Source: a virus
Length of the DNA stretch: 64,000 bases
Reading direction: 5' to 3' (one strand)
Virus record (IMG/VR): IMGVR_UViG_3300024054_000269
Location: 118,303 to 182,302 of that record
Position numbers and translations under genes: made by a program. Positions 7,518-64,000 of the stretch are shown here, one piece after another. Each line of letters opens with the position of its first letter. Within the stretch, counting starts at the first letter, position 1. The notes under the pieces were generated by a model. It made no database searches, had not been told where the DNA came from, and saw only the letters and a program-made list of their open reading frames with translations.

Positions 7518-8324
7518 TCAAATTACGGTCGCGACGTCAGAAGAGGCTTTTACAGAACTCAGAAGCCTATCAACATCGGCTTCCGATTTAGCTTTTGAGC
7601 CATTTGTATTAGAAAGTTCTACTTTATCGTCTTTGCCAATCTTAAACAAATTCTTGTCTTTTAGCGCATTGTATAATGACTGGCGAGACCATTTACCGAC
7701 TTTCTTCGTTTCAGAATAAATTTCAGATTTTGTAAGTTTTTTCCCCTTCAATATCTGGGAAATCACACCTTTAAGAGGCGGCTTAGCCCCAGCTTTTGTA
7801 AGCGCAACCTTTACAGGCTTTTTCTCAATTTTTTTATCCGATTTAGCTTCTATTGGTTTTGCCGCCTTGGCTGGTTTCGCCTTTGCAGCCTTTGCCGCCT
7901 TTGCTGGTTTGGCCACCTTGGCCACTTTGGCTGGTTTTTCCGCCTTGGCTGGTTTTTCCGCCTTGGCTGGTTTTTCCGCCTTGGCTGGTTTGGCCGCCTT
8001 GGCTGGTTTGGCCACCTTGGCCGCCTTTGCCGGTTTTGCCGGTTTTGCCGGTTTTGCCGCCTTTGCCGGTTTGTCAACTTTCTTTGTCACTTTTTCTTTC
8101 TTTTCCATTTTTGGTTTGGCCTTTTCCGGGTTTTTTAATTTATTTTCAATACCCGGCATAACATTACTAGACATCAATGTTACAATTTTATCAACTTTGG
8201 CTCTGTTTTCAGTCATTATTTTTGTGACTGATGCATTAGCATTATCGATGCCTTTTATCAATGCGTTGATTTTGGTTTGATTTTGAGTTGACTTTTGATT
8301 TCCCGATTTCTTACCATCAGCCAT
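7518..8324 (-). CDS. Histone H1-like PAKA-repeat DNA-binding protein with C-terminal HTH-like domain
   Basis: 268 aa. Residues 1-70 form a helical, coiled-coil-like segment. About 75-175 is a Lys/Ala/Pro repeat region built from AKPAK/AKAAK units, like eukaryotic H1 tails and bacterial AlgP/HctB proteins. About 180-245 is a compact winged-helix-like domain (LTKSEIYSETKKVGKWSRQSL). Expected to bind DNA without sequence specificity and compact or bridge it. SD AGAGGAC precedes the start, with a GC hairpin just upstream. The repeat DNA is much richer in G+C than its surroundings. Confidence 0.8.
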   Translation of the reverse strand: MADGKKSGNQKSTQNQTKINALIKGIDNANASVTKIMTENRAKVDKIVTLMSSNVMPGIENKLKNPEKAKPKMEKKEKVTKKVDKPAKAAKPAKPAKPAKAAKVAKPAKAAKPAKAEKPAKAEKPAKAEKPAKVAKVAKPAKAAKAAKAKPAKAAKPIEAKSDKKIEKKPVKVALTKAGAKPPLKGVISQILKGKKLTKSEIYSETKKVGKWSRQSLYNALKDKNLFKIGKDDKVELSNTNGSKAKSEADVDRLLSSVKASSDVATVI

Positions 8325-15250: not shown

Positions 15251-15256
15251 ATTACA
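15251..15256 (-). promoter_or_regulatory. TGTAAT box with an SD-containing leader downstream
   Basis: The minus strand reads TGTAATTTCAATT, the same string that precedes leaderless starts at 57605 and 58208. Here the start codon is 42 bases on and has a GGAGG. This supports the box being a promoter element, not a translation signal. Confidence 0.6.
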
Positions 15257-16301
15257 TTAAGTTAAATAATTTAATGTTTTTCTTCAACTTTTGTTTGGCA
15301 GAAACCTCTAATTGTCTTATTCGTTCTCTTGATAAAGACTTTTCGTCTCCTATTTCCTTAAGAGTTTTTTCTTGGTTTCCATCAAGACCAAATCTACATC
15401 TAATTATGTATGCTTCGAATGGTGTAAGCTTGTTTAAAGCATTTCTTATTTCATCCTTTACCTTATCAACGTCAAGATCATCAAACGTGCTTGGATCAGA
15501 TTCGTAAGTCAGGGTGTCTAACATTGTCAAATCATTATCATTTTTGACTTGTGCATTAAGACTAAACATTAAGTATTCTCTATAGCCATCAGTCCGTTTG
15601 ACAATTTCATTTGGTATTCCAGTTTCGTATGATATTTCTTCGTCAGTTGGTTTTCTGCCAAGTTTTGTTGTTAATTTCAAACTAGCTCTATTCACTCTAG
15701 CAATATTATCAAACATATGAACCGGAAATCTGACCAACCTTGATTTGTCAGATAAATATCTTTTAACACCGTGTCTTATCCACCAAGTCGCATAAGTTGA
15801 AAATCTACATCCCATAGAAACATCGAATCTTTCGATAGCTCGCATAAGACCTAAATTACCTTCTTGTACCAAATCGGATTTATCACCAAAATGTTTTATT
15901 TTTCTGACAATTGATATAACGAGCCTCAAATTTTGGTTAAAAAATTGTTTACGTTTATCAGCTATTATTTTAGCATCTCTTTTTAAAATCCTTTTCCAAT
16001 TTTTCTTACCATTCCAGTTTGGCAAATCAGAAAGATCAGCGTTTGTTAACTCAAACAACCAACACCTACCGCTATCAGTAAATCTAATCATTTTCTCCAA
16101 GTTTTCAAACTCAAAATCATCAATGCGTTCAGAAAGTTGTTTGGTGAATTTATTTTTCATCGGGCTAGAAAATATATGATTAATCAATGATTTTTCTAAA
16201 TAATCAATTTCTGTTAATATTGTTTTTTCTTCTTCAGTTGATAACAACTTATGTTTTGATACATCAATGCAATAATAATCAAATGAATTTTTCTGTCTCA
16301 T
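15252..16301 (-). CDS. RNA polymerase sigma factor, sigma-70 family
   Basis: About 349 aa. Region 1.2-like N-terminus; region 2 with FFNQNLRLVISIVRK, DLVQEGNLGLMRAIERFD and CRFSTYATWWIRHGVKRYL; region 3 (RKPTDEEISYETGI); region 4 with the LKEIGDEKSLSRERIRQLE helix-turn-helix. It should redirect host core RNA polymerase. Start ATG 16301 overlaps the stop of a 45-aa gene (AAATGAG); a TTG 15 bases upstream is less likely. A second sigma-like protein is at 5630. Confidence 0.93.
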   Translation of the reverse strand: MRQKNSFDYYCIDVSKHKLLSTEEEKTILTEIDYLEKSLINHIFSSPMKNKFTKQLSERIDDFEFENLEKMIRFTDSGRCWLFELTNADLSDLPNWNGKKNWKRILKRDAKIIADKRKQFFNQNLRLVISIVRKIKHFGDKSDLVQEGNLGLMRAIERFDVSMGCRFSTYATWWIRHGVKRYLSDKSRLVRFPVHMFDNIARVNRASLKLTTKLGRKPTDEEISYETGIPNEIVKRTDGYREYLMFSLNAQVKNDNDLTMLDTLTYESDPSTFDDLDVDKVKDEIRNALNKLTPFEAYIIRCRFGLDGNQEKTLKEIGDEKSLSRERIRQLEVSAKQKLKKNIKLFNLM

Positions 16302-16435
16302 TTGATTATTAACCAAATTACATAGAATGATATCAAAATCGATATTACAACTGAAGATGATAAATCTTTTTCAGTCTGTTTTTTGAGCGCTAAGTTTGCT
16401 TCAAACAAAGCCGATTGTTTTTTCTTGTCTAACAT
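16298..16435 (-). CDS. 45-aa single-pass membrane protein
   Basis: Frame from ATG 16435: basic N-terminus (MLDKKKQSAL), then a hydrophobic helix (about 28-44, VVISILISFYVIWLIIK). The stop overlaps the sigma-70 ATG in ATGA fashion and the preceding UDG gene ends 19 bases upstream, so it fills the gap in the operon exactly. Function unknown. Confidence 0.6.
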   Translation of the reverse strand: MLDKKKQSALFEANLALKKQTEKDLSSSVVISILISFYVIWLIIK

Positions 16436-51390: not shown

Positions 51391-51406
51391 TGTATATAGA
51401 AACATG
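51391..51406 (+). promoter_or_regulatory. TGTATA box 7 nt before ruvB ATG
   Basis: TGTATA 51391-51396, TAGAAAC, ATG 51404. The 200-base stretch upstream holds no other gene. Confidence 0.65.
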
Positions 51407-52351
51407 AATGAAGTTGAGTTTGACAAAGCTCTCCGACCTAAGATGTTGGTTGATTTCACCGGCCAGCCGAAATTGGTTGAGAGTCTAAAAATTTCAGTCG
51501 CGGCGGCAAAACACCGTGGTGACCCACTTGATCATATCTTGTGCGTGGGTCAACCGGGCCTCGGAAAGACAAGTTTGGCAAACATTTTGGCTAACGAGAT
51601 GGGATCAAAGATTATCGTTGTAAACGCGCCATCTATTAAGACCAAAGGTGAACTTGCCGGCGTTCTTACCAGACTCGAAGAAGGTGATATTCTGTTCATC
51701 GACGAAATTCACAGGCTTAGCCCGGTCGTCGAAGAAATTTTGTATCCAGTCATGGAAGATTTCAAACTCGAAGTCATTGTTGGCAAAGGTGTTAACGCAG
51801 AAGCCGTAGTCATGAAACTTCCGAGTTTCACTTTGATTGGTGCAACCACTTTGGCTGGTATGTTGACCAAGCCACTCTTGGACAGGTTTGGAGAAATCTG
51901 CGAATTCGAGCCATATTCAGCCGAAGATTTGTCTTCAATCGTGCTGCGTTCAGCCAAACTTATGGGTTTAGAATTTGATTCAGTTGCGGCAAACGTCTTG
52001 GCACACAGGTCGAAGGGCACCCCAAGAATCGCAAATCGGATCTTGCGTCGAGTTCGCGACCACGTTCAGTTTAACAAATCGAACTTCGTCGATGTAAACG
52101 CGGTCAAGGCTACCTGTGACCGTTTGGGCATTGACCATCTTGGTCTCGATAAGACAAGCCGTAAATTGCTCTCGGTGTTAGTCGAGAAAGCCAGACCGAT
52201 TGGTCTTGATTTGCTTGCATCCACACTCGGCGAATCAAAGGCGACCATCGAAGAAATCTGTGAGCCATATTTGATTCGAAACGGATTTATTGAACGCACT
52301 ACCCAAGGTCGAATTGCGACCAAGAAAGCCAAAGATTACGTCAAAGTGTAA
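51404..52351 (+). CDS. ruvB: Holliday junction DNA helicase RuvB
   Basis: 315 aa. Full RuvB: Walker A GQPGLGKT (49-56), Walker B ILFIDEIHRL (96-105), sensor GATT, LLDRFG arginine-finger region, and the C-terminal winged helix (LDLLASTLGESKATIEEICEPYLI). It drives branch migration of Holliday junctions. No RuvA or RuvC is in the window. Moderately GC-rich codon use compared with neighbours. Leaderless-type start. Confidence 0.96.
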   Translation: MNEVEFDKALRPKMLVDFTGQPKLVESLKISVAAAKHRGDPLDHILCVGQPGLGKTSLANILANEMGSKIIVVNAPSIKTKGELAGVLTRLEEGDILFIDEIHRLSPVVEEILYPVMEDFKLEVIVGKGVNAEAVVMKLPSFTLIGATTLAGMLTKPLLDRFGEICEFEPYSAEDLSSIVLRSAKLMGLEFDSVAANVLAHRSKGTPRIANRILRRVRDHVQFNKSNFVDVNAVKATCDRLGIDHLGLDKTSRKLLSVLVEKARPIGLDLLASTLGESKATIEEICEPYLIRNGFIERTTQGRIATKKAKDYVKV

Positions 52352-55204: not shown

Positions 55205-55408
55205 TTAAAAAGCCTTAATGACTCCAGTAACAAGTTTTTCGACTGGAAACCCTTCCCAATAATCTGGAAGCCCATCGAGGGCTGCCTCATCGACAGCCCT
55301 CACAGCAATAGCCAATTCACCATTCACACGGGTTATACCTATTCCAGTGCAACCTTGAAACTTCGGGTAACTATCTCTTGCTGATAATATCTTTTCATCT
55401 ATGTCCAT
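55205..55408 (-). CDS. Small conserved protein, protease-N-terminus-like
   Basis: 67 aa. GCTGIGITRVNGELAIAVRAV and the PDYWEGFPVEKLVTG end resemble the first part of a bacterial serine-protease-like family (substrate-binding strand pair without the catalytic domain). Coupled to the wHTH gene. Confidence 0.6.
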   Translation of the reverse strand: MDIDEKILSARDSYPKFQGCTGIGITRVNGELAIAVRAVDEAALDGLPDYWEGFPVEKLVTGVIKAF

Positions 55409-55920
55409 TAGATTTGTGGCTCCCCATCCTTGAAAATGGATTCGTATTTAGATTTTCCTAACCAAACAATTGCGCCTGTTCCAGTAAACTTACCAGGTCC
55501 ACGAGACATTCTGACTTGAGAAGACTGGGTATCTGATTCTGGGTTTTGAGAAGTTAGTTTAGACAATCTCTTTGCATGTTTTCTAGCTGAAACCCTAGAG
55601 ATACCTAGAGATTTTGCTAATTGAGTTATTGTAAAAGCAATATTTTCATGTTTCTGAAGTAATTCAACCATGCGGTCGCCAGAATGCGGACCGAATGTTG
55701 GGTCAGTTGGTTTCTTTGGTTTTTGGTTCGGCTTCTGTTCTGACTTCGATTCAGGGTTTGATTTTGTTATTATTTGTGGGGTCTCTTGTTCCATTTGAGC
55801 TTGTTCTTTGGAGACCGGCTGAACATCAGCTTGGTTATCATTTGACTTTTGTTGGCGTTTCTCTGACTTGCTGATTTTGCTCATTTGGACGACCTGTTTT
55901 GATTGTGCATGAGGCTGCAT
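55408..55920 (-). CDS. wHTH DNA-binding protein with Gln/Lys-rich N-terminus
   Basis: 170 aa. About 1-75 is disordered, Gln/Lys/Ser/Pro-rich; about 78-120 is a winged helix-turn-helix (VELLQKHENIAFTITQLAK, LGISRVSARKHAKRLSKL); C-terminal strand segment FTGTGAIVWLG. Last gene before the candidate origin, from which it is transcribed away; may act there. Confidence 0.72.
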   Translation of the reverse strand: MQPHAQSKQVVQMSKISKSEKRQQKSNDNQADVQPVSKEQAQMEQETPQIITKSNPESKSEQKPNQKPKKPTDPTFGPHSGDRMVELLQKHENIAFTITQLAKSLGISRVSARKHAKRLSKLTSQNPESDTQSSQVRMSRGPGKFTGTGAIVWLGKSKYESIFKDGEPQI

Positions 55921-56576
55921 TTCCAGACCTTACCCTTCATCAATTTCCGTCACGATTCTGTCATCAATCTGATTCTTCACTTAAGGTTATTTATCAAACC
56001 TACACTGAACGAACGAAATTTGAATGAACGTTCATAACTGAAATTATTTTCAATATTGTAAAAATCATTAAAGGTTTAACCTGAATTGAAAGTTTCAATT
56101 GTTTTGATACACCAAAAAAGCCTTCAGAAAACTTTAGAAAAACAACAGAAAGTTTCTGTTGTTTAATTTTGAATTTTCTAATAAACTTTAACATTTCTAC
56201 ACTGAACATTTTTGATGTCATTTTTGGTTTAATTATGGATATCATTTGTGTTTTAAATATATAAAAAACTATTCCCGTTAGTGTTAAAGAAAACACAAAC
56301 AAAGACTCCCCTTTATCTAATCAAAACTACACAGGCAAAGATTTGTTGAATAATCCGTCTTTATAGCCTTTGAGAGAAGCTTTTTGATAAATTTGAAAGA
56401 TTTCATGTGGCGCATGAATAACGCTGAAATTATAAAAATCTGTGGACAACCTGTGGATGAAAGAAATCTGTGGACGACCTGTGGACGAAACCTGTGGACG
56501 GTTTGTGTTTAAGCTTTGGTTCGTATTTTTTTCTGAAAGTCTGCTGATAATTCAAAGACCGAAAACTAGGTGAATT
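55921..56576. other. Non-coding strand-switch region, candidate replication origin
   Basis: About 650 bases with no convincing gene. Minus-strand genes lie to the left and plus-strand genes to the right. Left half (55990-56300) is extremely AT-rich; right part holds five DnaA-box-like repeats (56441-56501). A frame at 56000-56302 (minus; hydrophobic N-terminus, Lys-rich) with GGGGAG upstream could be a small membrane protein but looks weak. Confidence 0.5.
56441..56501 (+). repeat. Five TGTGGA(C/T)(A/G)(A/G) repeats resembling DnaA boxes
   Basis: TGTGGACAA (56441), TGTGGATGA (56452), TGTGGACGA (56469 and 56480), TGTGGACGG (56493). All differ by one or two bases from TGTGGATAA, the complement of the DnaA box TTATCCACA, in the same orientation at 11-17-base spacing. 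Suggests DnaA binding or an iteron set. Confidence 0.7.
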
Positions 56577-56750
56577 ATGGACGAATTTGAAACAATTGCT
56601 AACAACGCCATAGCAGAAGCTGAGTTGATAAACATTCCATACGATCAATATAAAACTTTCTTTGATGGTATGAGAAAGATACGAGATTTGATTCAACAAC
56701 GACTTGAAGAAGCAGAAGCAGAAATAATATCTAGAGGACAGTTATTGTGA
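56577..56750 (+). CDS. 57-aa helical phage protein
   Basis: ATG 56577 with AGGTG before it. MDEFETIANNAIAEAELINI then a coiled second helix (MRKIRDLIQQRLEEAEAEI). Small acidic helical proteins with this start are common in phages. First gene right of the candidate origin. Confidence 0.65.
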   Translation: MDEFETIANNAIAEAELINIPYDQYKTFFDGMRKIRDLIQQRLEEAEAEIISRGQLL

Positions 56751-59869: not shown

Positions 59870-60473
59870 CGACTTCTTCGGACAAGATCTCTTCTATTAT
59901 TTTACAAACTTCCTCTGGTGTCAATTTGAAGACTGAATTCAGATCAGTTATTAGCTGTTTTACTCTATCAACTTTCCAAGCATGAATTTTATTTTGAGTT
60001 TCAGGTAAAGCAATAACCCTTTTTGCTTCTTCAAGTGCGCGGTTTACAAATGCATCAACAAATGGTTTTGAGTCTTCTGCCACACATTGGTAAACACAAT
60101 TTGACTCACCGTTCATTATTAAATTCTTTTCTCTACAATCGTCAATTACATCATCAACCATTTCTCTTATTTCATAAAAATCCATGAAATGCGGTGTTGT
60201 ATTGGCACTGAGTACGATTGAACCTTCGTTAAAAACAAAAATAACGCTCCCATAAAATGGGTCAGGAATCATGTCACAATGCGCTGGTTCAGAATCTATA
60301 TAGGATACAACTATTATGTTTTGACCGATATAAGATGAAAGTTGCTCATCGTCTATATCTACTTGAAATTTGATTTTACTTGAAACAAACTGTATTGTCT
60401 CAAATTTTGTTTGGATAAGTCGTATCAGACTTTGGTATTTTTTGTTTGATTTAATTTTATCGTAAATTTCCAT
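59859..60473 (-). CDS. Tagged protein (EVVNS)
   Basis: 204 aa. N-terminal helices, strands (IKFQVDIDDEQLSSYIGQNIIVVSYI, GSVIFVFNEGSIVLSAN), helical end LTPEEVCKIIEEILSEEVVNS. Largest tagged protein in this region. CGTATT lies 7 bases before the ATG. Confidence 0.65.
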   Translation of the reverse strand: MEIYDKIKSNKKYQSLIRLIQTKFETIQFVSSKIKFQVDIDDEQLSSYIGQNIIVVSYIDSEPAHCDMIPDPFYGSVIFVFNEGSIVLSANTTPHFMDFYEIREMVDDVIDDCREKNLIMNGESNCVYQCVAEDSKPFVDAFVNRALEEAKRVIALPETQNKIHAWKVDRVKQLITDLNSVFKLTPEEVCKIIEEILSEEVVNS

Positions 60474-60486
60474 TTTAACAAATACG
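60471..60486 (-). promoter_or_regulatory. CGTATT box 7 nt before ATG
   Basis: Minus-strand CGTATT (60486-60481), 7 bases, ATG (60473). Confidence 0.35.
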
Positions 60487-60534
60487 CCAGAAACGATGAA
60501 AGTTACAATGAATGTTTAATGCTGAAATAATTAT

Positions 60535-60900
60535 ATGAAATCAAAGTTTGTTAAAATCGCCGAAAAATTATCTAGTCGTACGGCGGCCGAAGGTCGAATT
60601 GTTGACATATCAAGTCAAGTCTTGCCAAAACTTAATGAGTTGTTTTCGGAAGACGAATATGACGAAGCTTACGATTTTTTGATGGATAGCATGGTAAGCG
60701 GAGATTATGTAGAATTCAACCCCGACACTGAAACGTCGAGAGAAGAATCATTTGTATTTGGACTTGAATGGGACGGTCCGGTTTATCACTTTGAATTTGA
60801 TACGGGCTATCGACATTCTTTTTATTTGGGCGAAAGAGGAAAAAACGAACTGTTGGCGGCGTTGGAAAGAGAACCTGTGAGACAGGTTGTTGAAGACTAA
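60535..60900 (+). CDS. Hypothetical protein with IAEKLS start and VVED end
   Basis: 121 aa. FVKIAEKLSSRT start (IAxxI-like), acidic helices, strands (FVFGLEWDGPVYHFEFDTGY), end RQVVED. Combines the N-terminal pattern and a tag-like C-terminus. Not recognised. Confidence 0.6.
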   Translation: MKSKFVKIAEKLSSRTAAEGRIVDISSQVLPKLNELFSEDEYDEAYDFLMDSMVSGDYVEFNPDTETSREESFVFGLEWDGPVYHFEFDTGYRHSFYLGERGKNELLAALEREPVRQVVED

Positions 60901-61186
60901 TATGACGGTTTCAAAACGAGCCGCTAAGCGTTGGTTAAAGATTTCTGGCCAGTTTGGGCGATCTGAACTTGGTCCACACGTCAATTTCTTTGTATATGAA
61001 ATCAAAATGCGCATTCAATCGTCTGAATTTAAAGGTAAATGCGTTTCTGGCGAAATGACGTTGCGTGGTGAACCTAAAAAATGGTCAATTGCTGAATATC
61101 GCCCGGACCCCGGGACAGTTGACATTAGAGAGAACCCGATTGGAATACAAGCGTTGCTTATGAATGAAATTAACAAAAAATTTTAG
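60901..61186 (+). CDS. Basic hypothetical protein
   Basis: 94 aa from ATG 60901, directly after the previous TAA. Basic helix then strands (HVNFFVYEIKMRI). Not recognised. Confidence 0.6.
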
Positions 61187-61188
61187 TT

Positions 61189-61204
61189 TGTAAAGTTCGG
61201 GATG
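61189..61204 (+). promoter_or_regulatory. TGTAAA box 7 nt before ATG
   Basis: TGTAAA 61189-61194, GTTCGGG, ATG 61202. Confidence 0.55.
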
Positions 61205-61420
61205 AAGCTTACGCCGGAAAGATTAAAAGAACTTAATGACAAATCCATTGTTGCACTATCAACTTTGAGAGATTGCTCTCTCAAAAGAGAAAGCATTGAA
61301 GAATCTTTGAAAAACGCGGTAAACCGAGAAAAAGAAGCCATTAGAAAATGGAATGAAGCCGTTTCAAATTTGAAGAAAGCGTTTGATGAAGACGCTTGCA
61401 TTGAAGTTATTGACTCATGA
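61202..61420 (+). CDS. Helical protein with EVIDS tag
   Basis: 72 aa, one long helix (about 5-60), end ACIEVIDS. Overlaps the convergent gene by 14 bases. Function unknown. Confidence 0.65.
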   Translation: MKLTPERLKELNDKSIVALSTLRDCSLKRESIEESLKNAVNREKEAIRKWNEAVSNLKKAFDEDACIEVIDS

Positions 61421-61631
61421 GATCGCTTCTGGAAACTTCTATGACGTCAAACCAAAAACCACCGACGAGACCTTCGTCCGGAGTTGCGATTTCAACGATA
61501 AAAGCTGCGCCGCCTCCAAGCGTTTCAATTATTTTAACTTCAGTTCCAACCGGATGAACGTAACCGGGGCGTTCTTCTGAAGAAAGTGGTACTTTCAAAA
61601 CTATGACCCTAGTTCTATAAGGATTTGTCAT
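61407..61631 (-). CDS. Small beta-barrel protein (VVGGFWF)
   Basis: 74 aa from ATG 61631 (ATGA with the upstream stop). TRVIVLKVPLSSEERPGYVHP, GTEVKIIETLGGGAAFIVEI, DEGLVGGFWFDVIEV: a compact SH3-like beta barrel. Similar to small conserved proteins in other phages; not named. Confidence 0.6.
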   Translation of the reverse strand: MTNPYRTRVIVLKVPLSSEERPGYVHPVGTEVKIIETLGGGAAFIVEIATPDEGLVGGFWFDVIEVSRSDLMSQ

Positions 61632-61990
61632 GTTCTTTCCCAACTATTAAACATACTCAATGCCTTTGAATATTCAAAGAAGCCAATGTAGGATTGAATG
61701 TTTGGATAGAAAACTAAATGTTGAATGTCAACGTTATTCAATTTTATATAGTCTGCGTGGGCGTAAAGAGCAGTTATGTTTTTGCAAAATGGAACGTGTA
61801 AATCAACGATGGTTAAGAGAGCCTGGTGTTCATAATCTAATATTTCCTGTTTTGTGTAAGAAGAAGTTGTGCTGTTTTGTATCGAATAGCGTTGAGTTTC
61901 TTGGTTGAACACGAGAACGGGTTTCAAACCGGCCTGACCTGCGACCGGTCGTCCGTTAAAACCAACAACTATTAAATTAGTTGATTCCAT
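61628..61990 (-). CDS. Hypothetical protein
   Basis: 120 aa. N-terminal strands (NLIVVGFNGRPVAGQAGLKPV), central helices, not recognised. TGTAAT box 8 bases before the ATG. Confidence 0.6.
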   Translation of the reverse strand: MESTNLIVVGFNGRPVAGQAGLKPVLVFNQETQRYSIQNSTTSSYTKQEILDYEHQALLTIVDLHVPFCKNITALYAHADYIKLNNVDIQHLVFYPNIQSYIGFFEYSKALSMFNSWERT

Positions 61991-62004
61991 TTGATGAAAT
62001 TACA
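61988..62004 (-). promoter_or_regulatory. TGTAAT box 8 nt before ATG
   Basis: Minus-strand TGTAATTTCATCAA then ATG 61990. Confidence 0.6.
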
Positions 62005-62015
62005 TCAAGTCAAAA

Positions 62016-62021
62016 TGTAAT
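62016..62021 (+). promoter_or_regulatory. TGTAAT box upstream of an SD-led gene
   Basis: TGTAATTTC with the next usable start (ATG 62077) 55 bases on, preceded by GGAG (62066-62069): a leadered use of the same box, back to back with the divergent box at 61999-62004. Confidence 0.5.
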
Positions 62022-62076
62022 TTCGGGTATCGATACGAACGGCTTTGGGCGAACACAGTTTATTTGGAGCAAACCA

Positions 62077-62184
62077 ATGAGTACTAAATGCCTTTGCCTT
62101 TGTGGGAATGACAATCTCGATTTTTGGTATTCAAGAAGCTCCGGCCCTTTATCTAACTATGATGGAGTTAAGGGAGAAAAATGA
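62077..62184 (+). CDS. 35-aa Cys protein
   Basis: ATG 62077 with GGAG 7 bases before. CLCLCGNDNLDFWYSRSSG; CxCxC near the N-terminus. ATGA-coupled to the next gene. A longer frame from 61981 is possible but overlaps the divergent promoter. Confidence 0.5.
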   Translation: MSTKCLCLCGNDNLDFWYSRSSGPLSNYDGVKGEK

Positions 62185-62480
62185 ACGCTTTTGAACCGTC
62201 GAGCGAAGACGTTAAAAGATGGATGGAGTGGGTTGCGGAGAGACCGTCTAAAGTTAAAGACGTTGCTGAAAAAGTGTTTCCTTGGAAACTATATAAACTG
62301 AAAACGTCTGGACATTTTGTGACGTTATATTCGATTGACGAACCTAAAGACGGGAGTGAGCCGACGTTGAAGGTTGACGTGTCTAGAGAATTTAATCAAA
62401 ATTTGGCGTTTGAGAGAAGGGTGTTTGGGATTCGATTGGAAGACTTGGAAGAAGTTGGAAACGACGGTGTTTCAAGTTGA
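62181..62480 (+). CDS. Hypothetical protein
   Basis: 99 aa. Helix then strands (YKLKTSGHFVTLYSI, LKVDVSREF), no motif. Overlaps both neighbours by 4 bases. Confidence 0.6.
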   Translation: MNAFEPSSEDVKRWMEWVAERPSKVKDVAEKVFPWKLYKLKTSGHFVTLYSIDEPKDGSEPTLKVDVSREFNQNLAFERRVFGIRLEDLEEVGNDGVSS

Positions 62481-62881
62481 CTTTTTCAAATTATAAAGTG
62501 GGCGACGAAAAATTGATTAAAGAAATTGCCTTGGTGTTAAAAAGGGCGCCTTTTCTTACATTGTCTAAAGAACGAGACAGAGCGGTTGAAGAAAATGTAA
62601 TGTTACAATTTTACGGATATGGTGAAGATTCTGATTATTTGACTTATGGACCGCAAGGACATTATAAATTATCGGCAAAACGGGCGAATAACGGAACGTT
62701 GATGTGGGTTGCTGTTGCTACGTGGTATAAAGATGAAGAACCGGACGAAAGAGGGTTGCTTTATTGCATAAAACGAGCTTTGAAAGAACTTGATAGGATT
62801 GGTGTTGAAAGTGGTGTTGAACTTAGCCGTGGGACGTTAACGGAAGAAGAACATAAAGCGCTGGAAATTATTGATGCCTAA
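62477..62881 (+). CDS. Tagged protein (EIIDA), paralogue 1
   Basis: 134 aa, TTG start in TTGA overlap. N-terminal helix, strands, W-containing core (TLMWVAVATWYKDEEPDERGLLYCIKR), end GTLTEEEHKALEIIDA. The last 32 bases of the tag region are identical to the next gene. Confidence 0.7.
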   Translation: MTFSNYKVGDEKLIKEIALVLKRAPFLTLSKERDRAVEENVMLQFYGYGEDSDYLTYGPQGHYKLSAKRANNGTLMWVAVATWYKDEEPDERGLLYCIKRALKELDRIGVESGVELSRGTLTEEEHKALEIIDA

Positions 62882-63242
62882 TTGGAAAGAAGTTAAATGG
62901 TCTGATTTGAGACGAAATGAATTTGAAAATCAACTGAAGTTTATTCTCAAAACGAAAATATCGCCATCGGCGACGTTGATGCACAAAAATTTAAAAATTC
63001 ACAGACACGATGCTTCCTACATGTCGAATGTGAGGGACTGTAGAGATAAAATTGTTTTAAGTGTTCATTTAGATAACTGGTTTGTTGTTGCTAAATGGAT
63101 GGATTACGAAACGCCGAATTTAGACGGATTGTTGTATTTGATTGAACGTTTGTTTACGTCAGATGCGCCGTCATCTGTTACGGATTGTGATGGAACGTTG
63201 TCAGCGGAAGAACATAAAGCGCTGGAAATTATTGATGCGTGA
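62874..63242 (+). CDS. Tagged protein (EIIDA), paralogue 2
   Basis: 122 aa from ATG 62874. Core NWFVVAKWMDYETPNLDGLLYLIER aligns with paralogue 1; end GTLSAEEHKALEIIDA. Identical tag DNA (63207-63238 vs 62846-62877), although the bodies have diverged. Confidence 0.7.
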   Translation: MPNWKEVKWSDLRRNEFENQLKFILKTKISPSATLMHKNLKIHRHDASYMSNVRDCRDKIVLSVHLDNWFVVAKWMDYETPNLDGLLYLIERLFTSDAPSSVTDCDGTLSAEEHKALEIIDA

Positions 63243-63276
63243 GAATTTGTGATGTCAAAGGAAGTGAGAAGAAATT

Positions 63277-63528
63277 ATGGTGGACGTGAAAAATGAGGCG
63301 TTTCGAGAGGTGTGTTGTTATCAAGACCGTTATGAGAATTGTGCGTTTGCGAGCGTTGGCGGGCTTGAAAAGCGGAAGGAGTTGAAGGCGCCCGATTATG
63401 TTAACGAATGTGATGCGAAGGATTATTTGGAAGGATATGTTGCGGCTGCCGAGGAGATGTTTGGAGAAGACTGGAGAACGTGTGAATTTGAATGGAAAGC
63501 GGCGCTAACGATTGGCGCTGATGAGTGA
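63277..63528 (+). CDS. Hypothetical Cys protein
   Basis: 83 aa. CCYQDRYENC at the N-terminus, helix, W-containing end. GGAAGTGAGAAG upstream as weak SD. Overlaps the convergent gene by 24 bases. Confidence 0.6.
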   Translation: MVDVKNEAFREVCCYQDRYENCAFASVGGLEKRKELKAPDYVNECDAKDYLEGYVAAAEEMFGEDWRTCEFEWKAALTIGADE

Positions 63529-63807
63529 TTTCGGGTCTTTTAAGGTTATGACTCTATTGTCCGGATAAAAACCGCCACCTGATTGATAGATGCGAACGAC
63601 AGCGAGAAAGCCGGGTTTTGGTTGAAGTTTGCTTATGGCTGAAAATTTTCTGTCAAGCGTTTGAACTTGAACTAAAAATGAATCGAATGTTGAAACTGAA
63701 GAAATGACGATGCCGACGAGATCGACGTAAGAACCGATGCCATCGGAGGGACAAACAAGATCTGGTTCGAAAATTGGTTTTGGCTTATTTGAATTTTGAG
63801 AACCCAT
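63505..63807 (-). CDS. Beta-rich hypothetical protein
   Basis: 100 aa from ATG 63807 (an upstream ATG would overlap the tRNA). Strands (DLVGIVISSVSTFDSFLVQVQ, GFLAVVRIYQSGG), Pro/Ser-rich N-terminus. Not recognised. Confidence 0.55.
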   Translation of the reverse strand: MGSQNSNKPKPIFEPDLVCPSDGIGSYVDLVGIVISSVSTFDSFLVQVQTLDRKFSAISKLQPKPGFLAVVRIYQSGGGFYPDNRVITLKDPKSLISANR

Positions 63808-63857
63808 TTTTTGAAAATACATGAAAAGAAAAGTGGTGGAAGCGTAAAGTTGACGTT

Positions 63858-63929
63858 GCGGGCTTGGTCTAGATGGATGGGCCATAGGTTTCCAACCTAT
63901 AGAGGTCGGCTCGATACCGACAGCCCGCT
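63858..63929 (+). tRNA. tRNA-Gly(TCC)
   Basis: Acceptor GCGGGCT/AGCCCGC, anticodon stem ATAGG/CCTAT with loop TTTCCAA (anticodon TCC), T arm GTCGG-CTCGATA-CCGAC, U73 discriminator, no encoded CCA. A TCC anticodon reads GGA/GGG glycine codons. Confidence 0.92.
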
Positions 63930-64000
63930 CAAATTAATTCAAGTTGGTTGTGGTTTCAAAAGCCGCGCCCTCCTCCGACACCGAATCTTAACCACGAGCC

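Follow-up and report, generated by a model that had tools for sequence, protein, structure and literature searches.

DnaA boxes that are used by the initiator of the host are a recognized feature of plasmid and phage-plasmid replication origins such as those of P1, RK2, F and pSC101 (PMC4980987), and many large uncultured phages, the huge phages among them, display origin-like strand skew (PMC7162821). The locus described here is therefore of a kind already known. Its setting, a large phage equipped with a helicase and a polymerase of its own, is uncommon so far as the literature shows: our search there turned up a single predicted phage origin containing DnaA boxes (PMC11512268) and, for jumbo phages, no account of such boxes. 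Like the origins of P1, RK2, F and pSC101, this locus belongs to a mobile element and has DnaA-box-like repeats, all oriented alike, close to a candidate unwinding element; it differs from them in that no separate iteron family or recognizable Rep initiator was found, and in the chromosome-like skew of its large genome (PMC4980987). With the huge phages it shares a skew minimum in a large phage genome, a minimum marked here by the array of DnaA-box-like repeats (PMC7162821).

The stretch analyzed (hereafter the window) comprises the last 64 kb of a virus contig of 182,302 bases. PHROG matches identify it as a phage, the matched families being a baseplate wedge protein, PolA and a DnaB-like helicase, the last of which corresponds to a DnaB_C match at contig position 115,689; no match to Bac_DnaA_C, and hence no recognizable DnaA, occurs in the contig. 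Among the products of the window are a complete RuvB (51404-52351, plus strand) with P-loop, lid and C-terminal winged-helix domains according to Pfam, labeled a clamp loader in PHROGs and sharing 50% identity with the closest relative recovered from viruses, on a 393-kb contig (L024); a sigma factor of the sigma-70 family in which regions 2, 3 and 4 are present (15252-16316, minus strand); and a VanW-like protein, an unusual phage cargo (22376-23365, minus strand). WhiB, a marker of an actinobacterial host, is absent. The features of the candidate origin region are collected in the table.

Table. Features of the candidate origin region (window coordinates).
Feature	Position	Strand	Remarks
170-aa protein, first gene of the left-going block (55408 protein)	55408-55920	-	weak HTH_11 match, residues 84-122
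Intergenic candidate origin region	55921-56576	.	656 bases, more than any other non-coding gap in the window
Moderately AT-rich stretch, candidate unwinding element	55985-56430	.	72% AT; 5' of the TGTGGA array; putative role
Perfect inverted repeat AAACAACAGAAAGTTTCTGTTGTTT	56140-56164	.	11 pairs, 3-base loop; within the AT-rich stretch; resembles a hairpin or a terminator
Five-copy array of CTGTGGA-type repeats resembling DnaA boxes	56440-56501	+	TGTGGA(C/T)(A/G)(A/G) cores start at 56441, 56452, 56469, 56480 and 56493; steps of 11, 17, 11 and 13 bases
Box 1, TTGTCCACA	56441-56449	-	identical to the high-affinity DnaA box of M. tuberculosis and S. coelicolor (PMC4285127)
Box 2, TCATCCACA	56452-56460	-	E. 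coli box with one mismatch
Box 3, TCGTCCACA	56469-56477	-	
Box 4, TCGTCCACA	56480-56488	-	
Box 5, CCGTCCACA	56493-56501	-	
57-aa ORF, first of the right-going block	56577-56750	+	

An earlier note on this DNA had described five repeats in a single orientation at steps of 11 to 17 bases, lying beside a very AT-rich stretch at a switch between gene blocks. The repeats are confirmed in number, orientation and spacing, and the gap does divide mainly left-going from mainly right-going genes; the AT-rich side is also present, "very" being an overstatement for a composition of about 72% against 65%. On the plus strand the repeats read, in order, CTGTGGACAA, CTGTGGATGA, CTGTGGACGA, CTGTGGACGA and CTGTGGACGG, which in the opposite-strand spelling of DnaA boxes become TTGTCCACA, TCATCCACA, TCGTCCACA, TCGTCCACA and CCGTCCACA, with the core TCCACA common to all five sites within 61 bases. 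The 9-mer TGTGGA(C/T)(A/G)(A/G) occurs eight times in the 64-kb window, five of these inside that one 61-base stretch. Such clustering is far beyond chance: in 60 first-order Markov versions of the window, no more than two TGTGGA copies ever fell within 70 bases, compared with the five observed. Across the whole contig the 6-mer occurs 59 times, and no second intergenic array of such density exists anywhere in it. The only other dense cluster, on the opposite strand at contig positions 50,937-51,100, was rejected, as it represents the Cys-Gly codons of zinc-ribbon-like motifs; the 651-aa ORF in which these Cys motifs are repeated occupies G000:C1 49296-51251 (L014, minus strand). Only one other place in the window has a complex 6-mer five times in 70 bases, namely 8026-8068, where TTTGCCG appears five times in 42 bases, overlapping a minus-strand ORF.

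The exact E. coli box TTATCCACA is found in none of the five repeats, and E. coli-type boxes with at most one mismatch are not in excess in the window as a whole (19, with 23.5 expected). Three of the five boxes are unlike any high-affinity box given in a review of the subject (PMC4285127). The first box pair of the window (56440-56460) fits the 21-base pattern CTGTGGACRACCTGTGGAYGA, and in a collection of 84,980 genomes this pattern matches 29 bacterial stretches, mostly of Actinomycetota. Four of these 29 (L239, L251, L252 and L255) carry both dnaA and dnaN as judged by tblastn; they comprise two Glycomyces, one Actinomycetes MAG and one betaproteobacterial MAG, with Pfam support for DnaA and the beta clamp in L239 and for the beta clamp in L252. 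In L239, from Glycomyces arizonensis, the match sits between dnaA and dnaN, and the resemblance extends to the 21-base box pair, its 11-base step and the presence of several boxes in one intergenic region. The two arrangements are not equivalent, however, since the Glycomyces region has 18 boxes in both directions within 300 bases of the pair, whereas the phage has five in one direction, with no DnaA-trio run found beside them, on a contig that has no recognizable dnaA gene. The remaining matching stretches, many with further TGTGGA cores nearby and some with the pair alone, do not by the match acquire the status of origins. The occurrence of such box pairs at genuine oriC sites of bacteria supports the DnaA-box reading.

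The composition of the strands provides a separate line of evidence. Raw cumulative GC skew declines from about 6.3 kb of the window to a minimum at 55,502 and then climbs, and the cumulative skew of neutral sites (fourfold-degenerate plus intergenic) has its minimum at 56,332. Because gene direction switches at the same place as the skew, fourfold-degenerate sites were considered for each gene strand separately, in ORFs called mechanically, the right arm being taken as the sequence to the right of the gap together with stretches sampled elsewhere in the contig. To the left of the gap the plus strand is C-rich both in plus-strand genes (154 G, 184 C; -0.089) and in minus-strand genes (391 G, 440 C; -0.059), and to the right it is G-rich in both (1001 G, 806 C; +0.108 in plus-strand genes, and 132 G, 94 C; +0.168 in minus-strand genes). 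The switch in composition hence tracks position and not gene strand. When arm labels were permuted within strand, the effect of arm gave p = 0.0015 with a minimum ORF length of 70 aa, fading to p = 0.009 with a minimum of 120 aa and to 0.058 with 180 aa; the effect of gene strand within arms was not significant (p = 0.47). AT skew is the mirror image of the fourfold GC pattern. The change point is blurred over about 55-59.6 kb, its estimate being 55.0 kb from genes only, 56.3 kb from neutral sites and 59.1 kb from a one-step model. At the far end of the window (60001-64000) the neutral-site GC skew is very strong at +0.36, roughly threefold the value for the remainder of the right arm.

Outside the window, skew was sampled in seventeen 3-kb and two 4-kb stretches. 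Between 1 and 115 kb of the contig it was positive in 15 of 17 stretches, the two negative ones carrying long minus-strand ORFs, and thus no competing minimum is seen in the part sampled. Contig positions 1-123 kb belong to the right arm only if the molecule is circular or circularly permuted; none of the 20-mers from the first 3 kb of the contig recurs in the window, and the arms of a closed circle would be very unequal, at about 55 and 127 kb. The skew change on which the earlier note had made its origin reading depend is accordingly present, with the minimum at 55.5-56.3 kb of the window. Of that reading, the origin itself is supported by the skew switch and the assignment of the repeats as DnaA boxes by the oriC box pairs, the binding of DnaA to them being a prediction.

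The length of the gap is set off from that of the next-longest non-coding stretch in the window (312 bases). AT content to the left of the array is approximately 71-72%, against 65%, and the duplex instability of the gap in windows of 100, 200 and 400 bases ranks only seventh to eighth in the window. In E. coli the unwinding element lies on the same side relative to box R1, that is, 5' of the TGTGGA strand, and in B. subtilis it is likewise found on that side of the boxes adjoining the DnaA-trios. Runs of DnaA-trios occur in many origins and are not known to be universal; no run of three or more adjoins the array, and for this reason the region is classed here as acting like oriC and is not put forward as an established oriC-type origin. 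Around the inverted repeat, a segment of 161 bases folds better than most shuffles (z -2.1), and an Rfam scan gave nothing above the gathering score. The sequence CTACACTGAA has exactly two copies in the window (56000-56009 and 56197-56206), both in the gap and on the same strand, and is possibly a second binding site.

Arrays with the same core also recur in other viral contigs. Many IMG/VR contigs contain TGTGGATAA, with its TGTGGA core, at 11-base steps in up to ten copies, and arrays of one-turn spacing on viral contigs are thus not exclusive to the phage described here. Core and step are identical and the arrangement is head to tail; the IMG/VR arrays, however, use almost only TGTGGATAA, whereas the phage array has CAA, TGA, CGA and CGG endings. 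Neither dnaA nor dnaN was present in the retrieved DNA of these contigs, and local skew across the 120 IMG/VR array loci, which showed a weak tendency at 1.5 kb and none at 3 kb, is not counted as evidence. In twelve other large phage records that have RuvB or DNA polymerase in common with the phage, the pairs occur only in isolation. With the array DNA as query, plasmids gave no match and the matches in phages were short and weak; no relatives of the gap region were recovered, whether with DNA or the 55408 protein in phage records or with the 55408 protein and the DNA polymerase in viral contigs, and the 80 loci obtained with RuvB showed no synteny around the gap.

An origin at this site need not have been fashioned for DnaA. 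Its position, skew and repeats suit any iteron origin, and the repeats could serve an initiator encoded by the phage, either the 55408 protein or another, with their likeness to DnaA boxes convergent or inherited. The earlier note had named the adjoining 55408 product, as a wHTH protein, a candidate for such an initiator; what stands of this is a possible HTH, the HTH_11 match of 23.6 bits being below the Pfam cut-off of 25, in a protein that matches no PHROG, has no relative among the phages and viral contigs searched and gives a poor structure model (mean pLDDT 49). A sub-threshold HTH and the lack of relatives leave little positive evidence for this initiator; most of the scanned proteins of the phage are of no known function. 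The box pair and its 11-base step are, on the other hand, as found in dnaA-dnaN oriC regions, a likeness not required of iterons for an unrelated protein, and we regard iterons as an unlikely explanation.

The repeats might also be operators in a regulatory region between divergent operons, with host DnaA as a possible regulator and the origin located elsewhere or at no fixed site. The flanking genes are divergent, 75 bases separate the end of the array from the first right-going ORF, and a minus-strand promoter-like match (10 of 12, from 56457 to 56429) overlaps the array. Such promoter-like sites are nevertheless no commoner than in shuffles (9 versus 11.0), and a neutral-site skew that goes with position and not with gene strand would not be predicted from transcription alone; a purely transcriptional role is to that extent less likely, and operators of this kind seem improbable. 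Clusters of boxes that titrate DnaA are known, datA of E. coli being one example, and the resemblance of the phage repeats to DnaA boxes would also suit a decoy that lowers free host DnaA and halts initiation on the host chromosome without being a phage origin. The array has only five boxes, however, and a decoy need not sit at a skew minimum, which makes this a very remote prospect.

The gap region is probably a replication origin of the phage, and we favor, with confidence a little above even, its more specific interpretation as an oriC-like origin that uses host DnaA. In the scheme we envisage, host DnaA would bind the five head-to-tail boxes, which lie about one helical turn apart, and form a filament pointing toward the AT-rich stretch on the left; that stretch would be opened by the filament, presumably as the site of unwinding, and the DnaB-like helicase and PolA of the phage, once the helicase is loaded, may carry forks in both directions. 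Since the phage has a DnaB-like helicase, PolA and RuvB, it might rely on the host for origin recognition alone. It is conceivable, at somewhat less than even confidence, that a large phage which supplies both DNA polymerase and helicase itself in this way leaves origin recognition to host DnaA by means of a compact, one-directional mimic of oriC. Origins have rarely been located in large uncultured phages, and a box array at a skew minimum offers a concrete site. Should the interpretation be correct, the array would tie copying of the phage to the initiator of its host, and thereby to the control of initiation there; the boxes, through their spelling, would also reveal the DnaA specificity of that host, providing a possible clue to its identity.
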